A stretch of DNA of 64,000 nucleotides from Symbiotaphrina buchneri (lineage: Eukaryota; Ascomycota; Symbiotaphrinales; Symbiotaphrinaceae). Shown piece after piece: positions 15,759 to 47,324 of the stretch. The position numbers were made by a program, and so were the translations under genes. Under the pieces are notes generated by a model that ran no database searches, was not told where the DNA came from, and saw only the letters and a program-made list of their open reading frames with translations. Position 1 is the stretch's first letter. Each line of letters opens with the position of its first letter. The DNA lies in NCBI GenBank assembly GCA_001599915.1, contig BCIG01000012.1:558001-622000 (forward strand). The letters run 5' to 3'.

Positions 15759-16748
15759 CTACCGATGCTGGCCCCTTTCGAATACGTTGACACCACCGTC
15801 TCCCCCAACGAAGTACAACAGCTCTCTCTCTTCTATGGTTTTCTTGTCGTCTCCCAGATGCGTCAATAGGTCCGGCCCAAGTGTCACCCGCATAACTCCA
15901 CTTATGTCTCTTGCCATACCCGTGTCCAGCAGCCGTAATGAGATTGTATAGCTCGCCTGGTGTGCCAATCCGAGCACGAACGCCGCATGGTTCGTCTCAA
16001 GAGGGGTAATATTGTTCTGAACAAGCGGATAGTCCGCAGCCGCGACCACAATCGTCGAGTGAACGGCCTGATTGTCAGTATTGGGTCAGCAGCCGCCATG
16101 AAAACAGAATTGATCGCCGTCAACATACCTCTCGTAAATCCAGCACCCAATCTGCCATTTCCGGTGCACCCACATCCTCGCCAGTGGCAGCAAGCAGTAA
16201 ATCGGGCTGGTCAAGAACAAGCAGGACTCTCTTCCCGCCTTCTGCCAATCGCTCAATCTCCGCTTTCACCTCCGCACCCGCCCCGGCCAGCTGCGGCGAT
16301 CGCAACGTCCTCTGTGCCCCAATGCGTGCTGGTGCATATTTTGAGATCTTAGCCGGACCATTTTCGTCAGCGAAGAGTCCCGTCAACCCGTCGACGAATG
16401 AAAAGCGCTTCCTCTGCGCCAGTCGTGGAAGGTCAAGCCCCTGTAGTTCCAAGAACACTGAGATCAGTACACTGCGCATTGCGGTCGGACTAGGGAGAGG
16501 GCGTGCCTCAGACTTACCACCCTCTTTGCTGTCTCTCTCCAGAACTCGAAATCCCGCATGAAGCTCACGAGCACGACGTTGTACTCTTCGCCGCCTTCGG
16601 CAGCTGCCGGTGGAGCAAGCGCATTGTATAGGAAGCGCAGGACCAGCCAGCTGGCGGAGGCGCCCAGGACGGAGGTCACGAGAACGAGATCATCACGCGC
16701 AGGAGGGCGCACGTAGGATTCAAGCAGCGGAGGGATGCGAGACGTCAT
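15759..16748 (-). CDS. ELP6: Elongator complex subunit Elp6
   Basis: Member of the Elp4-Elp5-Elp6 ring of Elongator, which modifies wobble uridines in tRNA anticodons. Exons are 16748-16518, 16440-16129 and 16067-15759, giving 283 residues; introns are 77 and 61 bp. The start MTSRIPPLLESYVRPP and the segment LVLVTSVLGASASWLVLRFL match the first strand and helix of the RecA-like fold. As in the family, the Walker A lysine is absent (GASASW). FSFVDGLTGLF corresponds to the strand after the first intron, and RVLLVLDQPDLLLAATG fills the Walker B position. The end is a beta-rich GVMRVTLG...LYFVGGDGGVNVFERG. Length agrees with other fungal Elp6 (about 270-290). It lies tandem to the RdRP gene. Confidence 0.85.
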
Positions 16749-17117: not shown

Positions 17118-20100
17118 CTACCCTAGGAGCTGTTCCAACGCTTCGAAAGCGGAAGGGCCTTCTCGAATATCGAGGACAATTTCTTCCTCTATTTCCTCAT
17201 CATCCTCTGTCGTTTCATTCTTGTTCACTGGTTCTTGCGGCTTGTCTTGGTTACCGCTAACTTGAACAGGCTTTGGTCCTGTCTGAGAGGAATTGTCTGA
17301 GGGTGTGGACACCGGCGAGGAGAAAGGGCTGTTTTCCTCACTTGTCCGGGCATTTGGTGTCAGTACCCCGTTGTCGGAGCTGGGTTCACCGTCATCAAGC
17401 AGTACAGTGCGTTCCTGCATGACATGGACATGATCCACGGTCGCGTCACGGCCGTTAAGAAAGTCGTCCATGAGCGACCCGAGCTGCTGCTCTTCATGTA
17501 GTGGTTTATGCGATGGATTTGGCGCAGGCCCATGTCCTGCGTCCTCGAATAATTCTAGCAGGTCACCGCGATGCTTGATGTCTCCATCAATCTTGACAAT
17601 AAGGTCTTCTGCCGCATGATCTTTCATTTGATCTTTCTTCATTCCATGTCGCTTCGGCGCTGTCCCTGCTTCTTCGGGGATCTCAACGTCTACAGTATGG
17701 CGCAAGGTCCCGTTTGCTATCCTCCCGAGCACGCTCGGAAATAACCATGGGAAGCTGATGAGGGGCATTGACTGCACGTGCTTGAAGCGTACAGGAACCT
17801 CTTGCACCCCAGGGATCCTGATCTGCTTGCATTCTTCCAGTGCATGAGCCGTCTGCCTTTGAGTGACCGTGTACATTGCGGCCACGAATGGCGCTAAGGT
17901 CTCGCGATCCTTCGTTCCAATCTTCTCATAACATGCTTTTCTGAACCGATCCTTGAGGGAACTGGAAATCTCTCCCATCAATTCATGAAGCTTGTAGTCC
18001 CCAACCGTGGATTGCTTCAGCACGAAAGTTGACCAAACTTCATACTCGGTTTTGATCTCATGTTGCGCCATGATACGACGGATTGCTCGGTCATACTCCT
18101 CTTTAACTTGTTCAGCAGCTTCCAACGCCTCCTCGCTCAAATCGTAGGCCTTCAGGATCCTCTCATCGAATGGTGAGTCAAAGTCTGGAACGAAGTCCAC
18201 GCGCTCCACTTGGTCATAGAGCTGGCCTAGGACTTTGTCCGAGTGGTAGATCTTCTCCTGAGATAGGTGAGCCTTCTCCATCCAATGAGGCCATTTCCGA
18301 GGGTGCAGTTCTTCCTTCATTTTTGCAGGCTGTCCGGTTTTCACGTAATCAACTGCTTTGGAATGCAACTCAGCTAATTCAAGGCATCTCGCATCCATGA
18401 CGCCGTACTGTGAAAGATCCGCAAACGCCCTATGGGCAGTCGCAATGCTTCCAAGCCGGTCGTTCTTCATATATGTTACGAAGAAGGACGTGATATCATC
18501 GACTGTAACATCCCGGTCAAGCGTCAGCGCCTTTGGCGGTCTATAGTTCATCGGCTCGTGGTTCCATAGCGTGGGAATAAGGTCGCTGTCCCACATGACA
18601 AGATAATCATCTCCATCCAGATCACCACCAGAACACATACTGGCTAAATCCCTATCACCAGTTTGGGGAAGGACCACGCAGTCATAAAGGTGATGCAGGG
18701 CAGGAATATCCACCGCACGAACAACTCTAATATCGCCTGGGTGCAGAGATGGGTTACGTGCTAACAGACAGATTCCCTCGATCACTTTCTTTCTGTTTTG
18801 GTCCTCCCTGTCTGAGATCTGGATGAAGATCTCAGGCAATGCGTCAACAGGAATAGGACCCTCGGTATCCCGGGCTTCGCCAAAAGAACCCCTAAGCTTC
18901 CCAGTCTCGTCTATGCAACCCAGCACAAAAGCTCCTTGCTCAATCAATATCTTAGCTTTTTCCTTAAGATACTTGACCGACCAGGATCTCCATAGTCGCA
19001 TGATTGACAAGACGAATGGATCCTTGGAGGTCATGAATCCATCACTGAGTAATCCCGCAATTGTAATTGTCATTTTGTTTGGATCAACATATTTCTGCAA
19101 CAGTTTGATTGCCTTTTTATCGTCTGTCATTGCCTGCTCAAGCGTCGTCAACATCTCTCTTTGTTTCTCCACAAATTTGACATCTAGGACTCCGAGAGCA
19201 GAGAGCACAATGATCAACTGGCGATTCAGGGCCGCGCCTGCGTACTGTGACCATCTGATGATTTCCAGACCGTTGTGAGCAGCTGCGAACTTGTACTGGC
19301 TTGGACGGATATGGACTTCTTTCAGCTTCAGGGCTGGGTTGACTGCAAGCACGCCTTTACAACCTCCTAGGCGGAATTGGAAGACAGAAGGCACAGAAGG
19401 GAGATCCAATTCTGAAGTTATCAGTTGCGCAAGGAAAGGTGAGATCTTTCCAACACCGTCTGTAAATACGAAGCCATTGCGCTCAATATCCTCAACAGTC
19501 TTTACCTCAACATTGGAGCCATTTATTGCTCTTGTTGTTGAGAAGCATTGTCCTAGCCGAGCAGCGTGCTTTGCAACGACCCTGATATCCGAGAAGTCCC
19601 CCATCCACCGGCGTATCATGGCAGCATTGAGATGCGGTGTCGCGGCAAAGAAATATGCGCCATGCTCTCGGAATTGAGAGTTGCCAAATGCAAGGAACTC
19701 GAAATGACGATCACCAATTCTTATGCCGTTAACGAGGGTGCGCTTGATCCGCGTAAAAAGTTCATCGTCCTTTGGCTTGTCGGTAGCAAAGATGCGGTCC
19801 CTTGGCTTCTCCTCAGTGAAGCGGGGAGGACCCTTGTCAATCCATTGCCATAGCGTCTGGTATTGACCATGCTGCACCAGCGTTGTGAAACTGGGAGTAT
19901 TGACAAGTTCAAGATTGAAATCTTTGAGCGCTTTGCAGAGCTCTTCGTACCGTGGTCTGGAGACCCTTGTCGTGTCAAACGTAAAAAGGTATGTCGTCCA
20001 CCTGCCAATATCCACAAGAGGCTTAATGGATCTGTTAAGATTCAAAGCGGACTTCTTCAGCATCCTTGGATCATAGACGACGTCAGTCTGCCTATACCAT

Positions 20101-21211
20101 GTTTCCCAGTCACCCCAGAAGAGAGAGCCTTCGATGTGGGTGTTCTCTACTCTTGAAGCGTGTCTATAGAAGTTTGGCGGTGCTTCCAGAGTTATAAGAA
20201 ATCCTCTGTTGCGGTCGCCCAATTTCACCTCACAGATCCGCCGGATCTGCGGAAATGGTAGATGGAAGGAGAAAGCATCTGTACGATTGCACTCATTGAG
20301 ATCCATTGGTCTGCTGGACCTACGATCCCACTTTCGTGGATCCGTAATATTCAATTGAAAGCGGATTTCGATTCTTCGCCGAAGCAAGTCGACTTCAAAG
20401 TCAACCGGATGGTTCCCTGAACTTGTACTCTCATGCATCACCATCATCTTGTCGGTTTCATGCATGAAGCCAAACGATACAGAATCCATGCTTTGGAGCT
20501 GTAACTGTCAGTATTCTGTACATTTGGAGTTGCGGCAGCGCTCACCAGTTTCTCGGGATACTTGTGTCTAGGGTCGACTGGACTTGGAGCTATAAAATTC
20601 CGACGTTTTTCATCCAGCGTGATACGAAGAGGAAAAACGTCCCCACCGAAGGAGCAATGGCACTTTCCTCCAGATTCAAGCCAGAATGGCTTTGCGGGCG
20701 GTGGTCTAAGATACGTCAGTGCACACGCAGTATGCAATACGAAATGGGAGGCATACCGGAAACGGATACGAGCTCTGCCATTCCTCACTCCCTGGTTATT
20801 CTCAAATATCTCAATGCTCATGATACTACCTTCCCTGCTGAACCGCTTGTACAAGTCCAAGGTGGTGGCATGAGGTGGCAAGTCGGAAATGCTGACTCCT
20901 AGCTCCACCCATAATGTCCAGCTTTGATCGGTGTGGAGAAGTGGTGCTCTTGCTTGGGTCGTAGCATTTAGGGATCCTTCTGAGCGGGCTCCAGAACTGG
21001 GATGGAATTGCTGTAACATTCCTCCACGGTATGGTGAACCTCGGCCTCTAGGGTAGCTAGGGTATGTTCCCCCATTCCTGCCCCCTCGAAGAGCACCACG
21101 CTTAGAATGAGGAGGAGGTTGTTCCGGTAGGGCGTTGGCTGGTTGACTATAAGACTGTACGAGCAGGGGTCGTCCGAGAGTAAGTGGATGTGGGTTGGGC
21201 GTGGTAGACAT
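17118..21211 (-). CDS. RNA-dependent RNA polymerase (RNA-silencing type)
   Basis: Eukaryotic RdRP that turns single-stranded RNA into double-stranded RNA for Dicer in quelling, meiotic silencing or heterochromatin pathways. Exons are 21211-20546 and 20498-17118 with a 47-bp intron, for 1348 residues. The N-terminus has an Arg/Gly-rich stretch (RGGRNGG, YPRGRG, YRGG; residues about 38-64). An RRM-like fold follows at about 98-165 (WTLWVELGVSISDLP...RARIRFRY). The catalytic core carries FTDGVGKIS and the signature SGGDLDGDDY with the metal-binding DLDGD at residues 848-852. A long acidic tail ends the protein. The catalytic aspartates are intact. An RRM-like N-terminus is typical of the Rdp1/SAD-1 branch rather than QDE-1, but the branch is inferred only. 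Confidence 0.95.
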
Positions 21212-29712: not shown

Positions 29713-31484
29713 ATGGATCATTCCACGGCCAACAGTCCTGCGACACGCTCACCTTCTTCGCTCGACCCCTCTGCATTTCCAATTCCTCCCACACCCGCTG
29801 AGCTCCAAGGTGAGCCTGGTCGTACACCGCGGAGGACAAGCTTTGGTTTCCTGAAGCGTTCCAAATCGGGCGAGCATCTCGGCGGTCGCTCCTCCTCATT
29901 CGGCTCCAGGTCAAGCAAGAAACTACACAAGGTTCCACGCCCGTCTATTCCGATTTCTCCGCCAGTGCTTCCCGACATCTCCCCTGCACCACAGATACGT
30001 GCCTTCAGCGGCAATCACGTTAAAAGGGATTCAGTAGTGTCCAAAAGGGACCGTGGTGGATATTTCTCCGGCGTCAGCTACACTGAAGGCAGAATGAGCG
30101 CGGACTCGGCCATTACACACAGGATCCCCATTCCTCCCGTACCGACCAGTACCCCGCCAAAGGTCAATGGACATACTATTGGTGCATACCCCGCTACAGA
30201 AAGCATGGCGCATCGGGGCCGTTACAGCTACGCAAGTAGTGCTATTAGCACCATTAATAGTCCTCGTCGCCTCCGGCGGAGAAAGGATCCCACCCCGTTC
30301 AAGTAAGTATGGTTTCTCAATGGGTTCATAGCAAGCTAACACAGTACAGTATCCTTGTGATCTGGGCACGAAACTCTGGTAAAACATCATTCATCAACTT
30401 TCTTCGTTCATCCCTCGCTCTGCCAGTCAAGAAAGGTCACCGTCCATCTGGTGAGACAAAGCCTAACCCAGACGTCAAGCCATACTTGGACCACATTAAC
30501 CCTGCATTCACCTCTCATTACTTCGAGACTGAAATCGAAGGAGAACGGATTGGACTTACCCTTTGGGATTCTCCTGGACTTGAGAAGAATGTGGTCGATC
30601 TACAGCTGCGCGAGGTTACCTCGTTCATCGAAAGCAAATTCGAAGAAACATTTGCGGAAGAATTGAAGCTTGTCCGCTCTCCCGGTGTGCAAGACACCCA
30701 TATCCATTGCGTTTTCCTTCTTCTCGACCCAATGCGGCTTGATTCGAATATTGGGGAATCTTCCAAGCCCAAAGCCGATAACCCTCTTTCAAATGGGAAT
30801 AAGACTAATGGAAACAAAGCGTCCGGCCCTCTCGATGAAGACCTGGATTTGCAAGTCATCCGTGGACTTCAAGGCAAGACCACAGTCATTCCGGTCATTA
30901 GCAAAGCGGACACCCTCACAACGGCTCATATGGCGCATCTGAAGAGCACAGTATTTCAAACGATGAAAGCGGCCAACCTGGACCCATTCGAAGCACTTGG
31001 GCGAGACGGCCCTGACAATCTGAAGCTTGATGAGGAGGACGAAGATGACTCTGGGGACGACACATCTTCATCCCATGCAGAGTCGCCCGGAAAGGTCACT
31101 GAGACTGACCCTGTAGAGACGACGCTCACCAAGAGGAGTTCACTTGGTGCTGCCCGCCACTCAACCACAAACGGAGATGGTGTCTCCACCGCGGAAGAGG
31201 CCTGGTACCCGCTCTCTATCATTTCGCCTGATACGTACGAGCCAGACCTTGTTGGCCGCAAGTTTCCCTGGGGCTTTGCAGACCCGTACAATGTTGAGCA
31301 CTGCGACTTCATGCGCTTGAAAGAGAGCGTGTTTGCTGAATGGAGAGGTGAACTCAGGGAGGCTAGTAGGGATATTTGGTATGAAGACTGGAGAACGAGC
31401 AGGTTGGAGCGTGGTGATGGGAAAAAGTTGGCTGGTATCAATGGGGCAAAGAAGCCAATGAAGGTTATGCCCTACAGATACTAA
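29713..31484 (+). CDS. Septin-like GTPase with altered P-loop
   Basis: A 574-residue protein. Exons are 29713-30302 and 30350-31484, with a 47-bp intron whose removal creates FNILVIWARNSGKTSF. The ATG at 29713 is the first in frame. Residues 1-195 are a Ser/Pro/Arg-rich disordered tail ending in a basic run (RRLRRRKD), placed like the septin polybasic region just before the GTPase domain. G1 at 202-209 reads WARNSGKT: the GKT end is kept but the first glycine is tryptophan. G3 is DSPG (270-273) and G4 is SKAD (381-384). A short acidic/Ser insert sits at about 415-450. The end lacks a long coiled coil. GTP hydrolysis may be impaired. It could be a divergent fungal septin or a septin-related P-loop protein acting at septa or cortex. 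Confidence 0.75.
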
Positions 31485-45288: not shown

Positions 45289-45628
45289 AGGACCGTCGGA
45301 GTCGGGGAGCTTTGCCTGCGGAAGAGGTGAAACACCGTCTACCGAGCTCAGACGCCACTCAATGCACCAAGTTCGAGTCCTTCTAAAGGTCTAATCGTTC
45401 ATAAGAGACCCAAGAGATTGTATTCGACCGGTCCATCCAGCTGTGAAGATGGGGCGCCTGCGAGTATGTTCTCCGCGATATTCGTGAAGCCATTTGGGGT
45501 CGGTTAGTGCCGGGTACCCTTTCATTGGCTGTTGTGGCTTATTCATCAACTCGCTTAACATAACCTTCACGCACTTTTTGCCTGCCATGTTCATAAGATC
45601 AAATAAGGACAAATTTAAATGATTACTG
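45289..45628. other. Intergenic region between AIM11 and the tRNA gene
   Basis: 340 bp with the AIM11 promoter and the tRNA 5' flank; the last 30 bases before the tRNA are AT-rich. No gene is seen. Confidence 0.45.
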
Positions 45629-45777
45629 GCCCGGCTGGCGCAATGGTAGCGCGCCAGACTTCTATTCTACCCCCTCAGAATGGCATCTGGAGGCTGCGGG
45701 TTAGTCGACCCATATTGGCAACGTCAGTGGACTATCTTACTGACAATTCCAATCAGGTTCGAGCCCCGCGTCGGGTG
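45629..45777 (+). tRNA. tRNA-Arg(UCU) with a 20-nt canonical intron and a second T-arm insert
   Basis: Acceptor strands GCCCGGC (45629-45635) and GTCGGGT (45770-45776) pair with two G-T wobbles; G45777 is the discriminator. The D arm is GCGC-AATGGTA-GCGC. The anticodon stem CCAGA (45654-45658) pairs with TCTGG (45686-45690), and anticodon TCT (45661-45663) reads AGA codons. A 20-nt intron (45665-45684) sits after position 37, the normal place, and contains AGAA, which can pair with the anticodon. The variable loop is AGGCT. The T stem GCGGG (45696-45700) is separated from its partner loop and strand TTCGAGC-CCCGC (45758-45769) by a second insert. Box A (TGGCGCAATGG) and box B (GGTTCGAGCCC) are intact for Pol III. 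A pseudogene is the main alternative. Confidence 0.85.
45700..45756 (+). other. Intron-like insert in the tRNA T arm
   Basis: 57 nt that begins GTTAGT, has CTGAC at 45740-45744 and ends AATCAG, just like the spliceosomal introns of neighbouring protein genes in length and branch-to-acceptor distance (12 nt). Because GGTT is present on both sides, the exact borders could slide by a few bases; only this choice gives GT...AG ends. A six-pair hairpin (GTCAGT 45723-45728 with ACTGAC 45739-45744) includes the branch motif. Its removal joins GCGG to GTTCGAGCCCCGC and rebuilds five perfect T-stem pairs. Confidence 0.75.
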
Positions 45778-45789
45778 TATGTTGGCTTC

Positions 45790-45797
45790 TTTTTTTT
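45790..45797 (+). terminator. Pol III terminator T8
   Basis: A run of eight T residues 13 nt after the tRNA end, the usual RNA polymerase III stop signal; it supports transcription of the tRNA gene. Confidence 0.75.
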
Positions 45798-47324
45798 CCT
45801 TTTCTCAGTTCCTTGAGGCTCTTTAGGAGGTAAGCCGAAAACATCGTTTTTTTTTAAATTCCAGGCACTACTAATGGATTGGAAACAACAGTCATCGAAG
45901 ATACCGTAGGTAAGGTGGAGTACCTTACTCTGTGCTGGGGAACGATATTTTTCGGGTTCGAACCCCCCATGTCAGGTGTGAGATTAATCATTTTATCAAA
46001 TTTCTTTTTTCTTGTTCTGCGTGTTCGTCTACCGTAATTATAAAGACCAAAAACTTCGTTTTGATGCGCCTTTACCAAGGGATCCGAGTTTCGCATCTCG
46101 ATATGACGCTGCATTGGCCTTGAGCCCCAAAGAGGGCACCGGTACTCCGTGCGACGCGGAAACCCAGTGCGTAATTTTGTACCCTGCGCCAAGTCCACGC
46201 GAAATATCAGATCTTTACGGAATATTCAAACTGTGATCTCTCAATGATTGCGTTTCCAGAGCCAGGAAAATCCAGAAGCAATGGAATACTTCCGACAAAA
46301 GTACCTAGGATACCTACCTTGTGTCCATGATAATGCGACTCTAATAATGGAGACTGACAGGCGTCGCGTATTCCCTTCGCTGGTGCGACAATTCCCGTGT
46401 TCTGTAACCGGAGTAGATGAGTCGCAGCAAACTCGTAGACATGGTGTGAGATTGATACTCTGTAGCATGGCATTCCTCAACACACCTGCAGTTTTTTGCG
46501 AAAGGATCTTGTCGATAACAATCATTAATCTTGAAATGTGAGGCGGGGCGCAAGAATGCGGGTGAAGATCCGAGAAGAAAAGTTGGCATGAGCTGTGGCT
46601 GAAGTGAGTGGAGATTCTAATTTTGGGGAAACGGTGGACGATGGTGAGTGGACAGGAAAGAGGCAGCCTAACCCCAGCTGGGCAGGCGGGCAGCCCACAA
46701 GAAACTTGGCGACGCTTGAGACGCGAAAAGGTCAAACCGAAATCATGTGGCTGATCTTCATCTCTTGCCCGACTATCGATAGCACGGCAGGGGGGTTGAC
46801 ACGCTAAGCCTGATGAACACCTGAAAGGCAGTGCGTTCGCCTGTTCCGCCAGTGACAGATCAAGCTGTTATCCCTGGCTAAACCTTTTGACTTCGCCTTT
46901 GCCTTGTCTTGCTCTGGCGGCCCATCCCTCTCGGTCTGTGGGTGCCTTTCCTGCTTTGCCTGCTTGCCTGCTCGTTGTCCGCCGAACCTCATCCCCACCC
47001 CCCTGGACTCAGCAGTACATCGGAATATCTGCACAGAGTGCTTGCAGTCTCCGGTACAATCGACCGCCAGTCCTCTCCTCCATCCCCTGCAACAATGGCG
47101 TAGAGCGTCAATGGAGGCAATATCGAGGACGTCATTCACCTAATTTACAGTCAACCAACAACAATCGGCGCTGTGCACTCATTCAACCCTTATCGGCTGC
47201 GGATCACTCTGCGCGGCGCGCTTCCCACTCTCGCTCCTGCACCGCCGATCAACGTCTCCTTGTCCAGCAGTACCATCTCCACCCTCACCTGCCATTCAAT
47301 CGCACTGGCCGGCGAATAACCACC
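45798..47324. other. Intergenic region and long palI leader
   Basis: 1.5 kb between the tRNA terminator and the palI ATG. The left part has a tRNA-like relic (listed separately) and AT-rich sequence. The right part, from about 46880, is a CT-rich leader; a frame from 46887 runs in phase into palI but lacks an ATG start and a plausible protein composition. No other gene is seen. Confidence 0.45.
45953..45979 (+). other. tRNA 3'-end-like relic
   Basis: CGGGTTCGAACCCCCC followed by ATGTCAGGTGT resembles the T loop and 3' acceptor strand of the tRNA-Arg 200 bp upstream (GTTCGAGCCCCGC then GTCGGGTGT). It has a complete box B consensus, but the T stem pairs only in three positions and no matching 5' half is convincing. 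Probably a decayed tRNA copy or a stray box B. Confidence 0.3.

Follow-up and report, generated by a model that had tools for sequence, protein, structure and literature searches.

A tRNA-Arg(UCU) gene on the forward strand of the window, the whole 64-kb stretch of DNA analysed here, is interrupted twice, once by a canonical intron and once by a GT-AG insert in the T arm (Table 1). The sequence and ARAGORN bear out the original prediction for the extent of the gene, its UCU anticodon, the 20-nt intron after position 37 and the 57-nt insert. Joining 45629-45664, 45685-45699 and 45757-45777 yields a 72-nt molecule that ARAGORN identifies as tRNA-Arg(TCT), with 21/21 stem pairs: acceptor 7/7 (two of them G-U), D 4/4, anticodon 5/5 and T 5/5. 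The canonical intron (45665-45684) sits one base after the anticodon, and its removal brings together all five pairs of the anticodon stem; removal of 45700-45756 likewise gives all five pairs of the T stem, as had been claimed. Among sites on either strand with a TTCNR loop start, the 3' half at 45758 is the sole one that pairs at 11 or more of 12 positions with the T and acceptor strands of the 5' half.

By eye, all of the loop bases that we take to be typical of elongator tRNAs are present (T8, A14, G18 G19, A21, T33, a purine at 37, T54 T55 C56 and A58), and the G1-U72 pair and G73 are presumably shared with the UCU arginine tRNA of budding yeast. Decoding of AGA requires a UCU tRNA, and in a count over 14 ORFs AGA accounts for 95 of 580 arginine codons; the organism therefore needs a UCU tRNA.

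Table 1. Features of the tRNA-Arg(UCU) locus, in window coordinates
Feature	Position	Strand	Description	Basis
tRNA-Arg(UCU) gene	45629-45777	+	two interruptions, at 37/38 and in the T arm	
Exon 1	45629-45664	+	tRNA positions 1-37: acceptor 5' strand, D arm, anticodon UCU (45661-45663)	ARAGORN, Rfam alignment
A-box-like internal Pol III promoter	45636-45646	+	TGGCGCAATGG	sequence, by eye
Canonical intron	45665-45684	+	20 nt, at 37/38	ARAGORN fold of joined exons
Exon 2	45685-45699	+	positions 38-52	ARAGORN
T-arm insert, candidate spliceosomal intron	45700-45756	+	57 nt, GT-AG; position 52/53 (equivalent register 53/54)	
5' splice site	45700-45705	+	GTTAGT	
Branch-site motif	45740-45744	+	CTGAC, context TACTGACA	
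3' splice site	45754-45756	+	CAG	
B box	45756-45766	+	GGTTCGAGCCC; intact in the unspliced gene	exact match
Exon 3	45757-45777	+	positions 53-73	ARAGORN; pairing scan for the 3' half
T8 run, Pol III terminator-like	45790-45797	+	12 nt after the gene	
Possible decayed second copy	45953-45980	+	relic resembling a tRNA 3' end, GGTTCGAACCC...GTCAGGTGT	

Both internal promoter elements are in place in the interrupted gene. The upstream element is presumably an A box, by a consensus that we assume, and the insert does not disrupt the B box, since its terminal G takes over as position 52 in place of G52. Neither the gene nor the insert contains a T4 run, and the T8 run downstream is one of only two runs of at least 8 T in the window, both on the + strand. 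With the B box intact, no T4 run within and T8 behind, Pol III could therefore transcribe the interrupted gene.

Rfam at gathering thresholds returns one match in the 64 kb, a tRNA at 45629-45776 (+) that scores 29.1 bits unspliced against a cut-off of 29. At the same settings Infernal places 61 nt where the tRNA model has 4; this alignment is blind to splicing and therefore locates the same 57-nt excess independently, in the T loop. The original prediction had proposed scoring the gene with and without the insert; the Infernal result just given is the one with the insert present, and ARAGORN, used for the form without it, finds a fully paired 72-nt tRNA. A laxer Rfam search of 1,500 bases produced a shorter and weaker alignment (45636-45713, 20.5 bits), in which the T stem is paired within the start of the insert. 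At 45485 Rfam also reported a mammalian lncRNA; with 19 bits, where the cut-off is 40, this was attributed to chance. The default ARAGORN scan of the window missed the gene at 45629-45777, and when long introns were allowed, the sole fold that the program proposed for the unspliced sequence was an incorrect tRNA-Cys.

The window is fungal nuclear DNA. It contains 57 stop-to-stop ORFs of at least 150 aa; 20 were scanned against Pfam and 14 of these matched at E 0.001 or better, the matches including a Zn(2)-Cys(6) transcription factor with a fungal trans domain, an RNA-dependent RNA polymerase, GPI2, a Fumble-family (pantothenate kinase) protein, a septin, an ABC1 kinase, a SUR7/PalI protein and a syntaxin-5-like SNARE. 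The RNA-dependent RNA polymerase (17118-20545, -) is of the cellular type (PF05183, E 7.7e-192) and has a predicted 47-nt intron at 20499-20545; used as a query for related contigs in the viral collection, the protein gave six pattern matches, none of which was confirmed. At 30261-31484 (+) lies a septin-like GTPase with an acidic, serine-containing insert, matched by Pfam in three stretches.

Boundaries and splice signals of the T-arm insert

Five excision registers, from 45699-45755 to 45703-45759, all leave the identical tRNA because the 4-nt direct repeat GGTT stands at both ends of the insert (45699-45702 and 45756-45759), and the boundary is ambiguous to this extent. Only one of the five, 45700-45756, has GT-AG ends. 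The GGTT repeat resembles what a target-site duplication or an intron-gain scar might leave. A comparison for introners found no second copy of the insert within the 64-kb window, the longest other exact match being 12 nt.

In the GT-AG register the insert starts with GTTAGT, contains CTGAC and ends with CAG, just as had been read from the sequence. The published consensus for fungal introns is GTRWGT, RCTRAY and YAG, with the branch site 6-36 nt from the acceptor (PMC5832005). The branch A of ACTGAC, at 45743, lies 13 nt before the end of the insert and fits RCTRAY at 6-36 nt before YAG. The donor is close to GTRWGT, with one mismatch, the T at position 3; nearly all of the non-consensus donors of U3 introns are likewise described with one mismatch (PMC5832005).

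How often such a combination arises was counted in the window itself. We defined a signature of GTNNGT, CTRAC 8-20 nt before the end and a terminal YAG, in any of the five registers, and scanned both strands for it at a length of 57 nt; it occurs at 5 of 127,840 start positions, and all five are the insert itself. When 57-mers from the rest of the window were placed at the insertion point and only tRNA-restoring registers were considered, the full signature appeared once in 127,372 placements and plain GT-AG ends appeared in 1,445, by criteria that were chosen after the insert had been seen, though they follow the published fungal consensus. The spliceosome-like character ascribed to the insert is thus supported well above chance by both counts. 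Read on the - strand, 45687-45744 fits the strict intron pattern too (GTCAGT...CTAAC...CAG, 58 nt), and the window has 18 such matches of 40-79 nt in all; this one arises because GTTAG and ACTGAC reverse to CTAAC and GTCAGT.

The insert was also compared with introns of the protein genes around it. Candidate introns linking one ORF to another were sought with generic fungal motifs; of the 30 best (11 on the + and 19 on the - strand), nine were picked by hand for the comparison as short, with a CTRAC branch motif and mostly between large ORFs. These nine are 44-61 nt long, so that the 57-nt insert has, as proposed, the length of nearby protein-gene introns, and its branch distance fits theirs. 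CTRAC and YAG occur in 9/9, which is built in, as the introns were hand-picked from motif-based candidates. The extra A of CTRACA, which is not built in, occurs in 8/9, and the insert has CTGACA; the 8-nt branch context of the insert is identical in two of the nine, 20499-20545 and 16068-16128. T at donor position 3 is found in 0/9, though the weighting of the intron finder disfavoured T at this place. The insert is more structured than these introns, with a minimum free energy of -13.6 and z of -2.2 against z values of -0.6 to 1.3. Judged by sequence, identification of the insert as a spliceosome-type intron is strongly supported.

Fold of the unspliced precursor

According to the original prediction the T stem could not form unless the insert was removed. 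This is wrong: the minimum-energy fold of the unspliced precursor contains all five T-stem pairs, with probability 0.79-0.82, and the insert extends the loop. Of the first interpretation, the spliceosome-like insert therefore stands, whereas the argument from a T stem that requires removal does not. Beyond the T stem, TCGA of the insert (45705-45708) pairs with TCGA of the T loop (45759-45762) in a 4-bp helix that adjoins an unpaired TTAG, and helices of 2, 5 and 8 bp follow.

Dinucleotide shuffling of the insert separates the common from the uncommon in this fold. Pairing of the T loop with the insert is common, at least four T-loop bases being paired in 646 of 1,000 shuffled inserts, and the T stem is kept in 331 of 1,000 shuffled-insert precursors. 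The overall stability of the precursor is uncommon, with only 5 of 1,000 as stable (z -3.2). A stable hairpin encloses the branch motif, and the fold covers both the branch site and the T loop. Such a fold may hinder splicing, and it counts against a spliceosomal intron unless the RNA is remodelled.

Processing and status of the interrupted gene

The anatomy of the gene, its fold, the splice signals at the boundary that the fold dictates and the promoter- and terminator-like motifs are directly supported by the data. The locus is probably a nuclear, Pol III-transcribed tRNA-Arg(UCU) gene that carries a spliceosomal intron beside its conventional intron at 37/38, and we favour splicing of the insert from a Pol III pre-tRNA into a functional tRNA as the likeliest account. 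Points against it are the T at donor position 3, the marked structure of the insert, the pairing of the T stem within the insert in the laxer Rfam search and the intron-like match on the - strand. From these observations we infer transcription, spliceosomal removal, the order of the two splicing steps and use as a tRNA. Pol III would transcribe the gene from the A box and the B box, both of which the insert spares. The spliceosome would then excise 45700-45756 in the nucleus by way of GTTAGT, the branch A at 45743 and CAG; the T loop, once free, would make the tRNA elbow, and the anticodon intron would afterwards be removed by the tRNA endonuclease and ligase. Canonical introns in eukaryotes are described as needing, for their removal, the mature tRNA domain and the D-T elbow within it (PMC6379350). 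With this elbow needed and the T loop paired in the precursor, the T-arm insert is therefore predicted to leave first and the anticodon intron second. We propose, tentatively, a more specific scheme in which a single essential tRNA needs the spliceosome and then the tRNA endonuclease in a fixed order; by hiding the elbow, the insert would gate canonical splicing and couple the decoding of AGA to spliceosome activity.

Alternatively, the gene may be an inactive copy: a spliceosomal intron, whole or partial, would have inserted, for instance by reverse splicing, into one member of a set of tRNA-Arg(UCU) genes, and the uninterrupted members would supply the cell. Fungal genomes often contain several copies of a tRNA gene, which counts for this explanation, as does the tRNA 3'-end relic about 175 nt downstream. 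We consider it unlikely: all 21 exon stem pairs, the canonical intron, the B box and the T8 run are undecayed and the insert retains its 5' site, branch site and 3' site, although a very recent insertion would look equally undecayed. In eukaryotic tRNA genes, short insertions in the D or T arm are described as occurring mostly in one of many synonymous genes, the interrupted copies being supposed pseudogenes (PMC4090602), a further point in favour of an inactive copy.

The relic, which is preceded by a T5 run, contains an exact B box (45955). Under all three scorings used, 1,000 dinucleotide shuffles yielded no alignment to exon 3 as good as that of the relic. A search for repeats of at least 12 nt in 45401-46200 found none, so the relic is recognised solely by gapped alignment. 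A complete second tRNA at 45955 was rejected: no D arm could be seen by eye and just a single 7-mer in 45780-45949 matches 6 or more of the 7 acceptor positions by pairing, so that 45953-45980 is a relic at most. The stretch before it resembles the insert weakly (67, 9 and 37 of 1,000 dinucleotide shuffles as good under the three scorings), and the 5' part before the relic is not similar (513, 593 and 475 of 1,000). An upstream control stretch gave 30, 709 and 302 of 1,000 shuffles, which indicates that one scoring is lenient. If real, the insert-like stretch would mean that the insert predates the duplication and would favour function in the surviving copy; the similarity is too thin to use.

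An ectopic intron of the tRNA endonuclease, as in the red alga Cyanidioschyzon and in archaea, with TSEN cutting a bulge-helix-bulge (BHB) in the T arm, appears improbable. The 4-bp helix between insert and T loop beside the unpaired TTAG would suit such an intron, as would the stability of the precursor relative to shuffled inserts, but T-loop pairing of this extent is also common with shuffled inserts, and the GT-branch-AG arrangement would be left unexplained. Moreover, the polarity is presumably opposite, by a geometry that is partly our assumption: here the 5' part of the insert pairs with the 3' exon, whereas a BHB pairs the 5' exon. In the BHB introns described, the 5' exon (anticodon) pairs with the intron (PMC4090602), in a 4-bp helix with 3-nt bulges at the cuts (PMC4090602, PMC6379350), and the register 53/54, one of the five open to the insert, is a position known in archaea (PMC4090602). 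The strict central helix was sought in all five registers and reached 3, 0, 2, 2 and 2 of the 4 pairs; at least three pairs were present in 1,293 of 5,000 random + strand inserts, and the strict BHB reading was rejected as showing nothing above these. The endonuclease, which had been named as the alternative to the spliceosome, therefore gains no support from this test. The canonical intron of the same gene has 2/4 central BHB pairs, which fits eukaryotic canonical introns, whose removal relies on the mature tRNA domain (PMC6379350).

It is highly improbable that the insert is kept, giving a mature RNA whose T arm is much lengthened or an RNA that resembles a tRNA but has a different role: the unspliced RNA does form all four cloverleaf stems with the insert as an extended arm, but its T loop is buried in pairing, so that the D-T elbow could not form, and the splice signals would have no explanation. 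A random insert that happens to resemble an intron is the least probable of all, given the one match in 127,372 placements and no window position besides the insert at 57 nt, even for a single case judged by criteria set post hoc.

Relation to known introns in small RNAs

A spliceosomal intron in the tRNA-Arg(UCU) gene, the reading that we prefer, has a close parallel in U6. The U6 RNA of fission yeast and other fungi is, like the candidate described here, a small Pol III RNA with a spliceosomal intron inside it (PMC10484740, PMC5832005); that of fission yeast is described as an mRNA-type intron, and the U6 intron is thought to derive from reverse splicing near the catalytic bases (PMC10484740). 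However, U6 is a component of the spliceosome and a tRNA is not, and the tRNA-Arg(UCU) transcript also carries an endonuclease-type intron. Fungal U3 snoRNA, a structured small RNA, has GT-AG introns with RCTRAC branch sites as the insert does; they are reported to be distributed broadly in Basidiomycota, and the first stem-loop holds 133 of 138 of them in its 5' half, at an average length of 92 nt for U3 introns (PMC5832005). U3 differs from the tRNA as another RNA with another maturation pathway. In the same account, from 2017, U3 and U6 are singled out as the sole small structured RNAs for which frequent interruption by an intron is known (PMC5832005).

Ectopic tRNA introns of Cyanidioschyzon, nucleomorphs and archaea resemble the insert in that the T arm contains an extra intron, in some cases together with a canonical one (PMC4090602). 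In archaea and Cyanidioschyzon they are associated with BHB motifs and the tRNA endonuclease, and the route by which nucleomorph introns are removed was not known to that review (PMC4090602). The fungal U6 intron and the ectopic tRNA introns of algae and archaea, which the original prediction had invoked as precedents, are both documented in these sources (PMC10484740, PMC4090602). The available part of PMC4090602 describes no ectopic tRNA intron as GT-AG with a branch site, and the strings 'spliceosom' and 'GT-AG' are absent from it. We recognised no report of a spliceosomal intron in a tRNA gene among the matches listed in the open-licence literature, as far as their text was available, and the accessible portions of PMC12730881, PMC11782384 and PMC2888827 contain nothing on one. 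A pattern search for tRNA-Arg(UCU) returned 15 loci from the viral collection and two from MAGs, with the T arm uninterrupted in 17/17; these loci come from viral and prokaryotic collections and are therefore not informative for fungi.

The extra-intron step of tRNAscan-SE 2.0 is described for archaeal candidates (PMC8450103). With such a step described for archaeal candidates, and with the gene missed by ARAGORN, more fungal genes of this kind may hide among missed loci or 'pseudogene' calls. Nuclear tRNA introns and spliceosomal introns are usually treated as two separate systems. If the proposed splicing of the tRNA-Arg(UCU) transcript is true, it would raise the question of how such introns arise, be it by reverse splicing or by introner insertion; it would also add a Pol III pre-tRNA to the substrates of the spliceosome, as a further kind of Pol III host besides U6.
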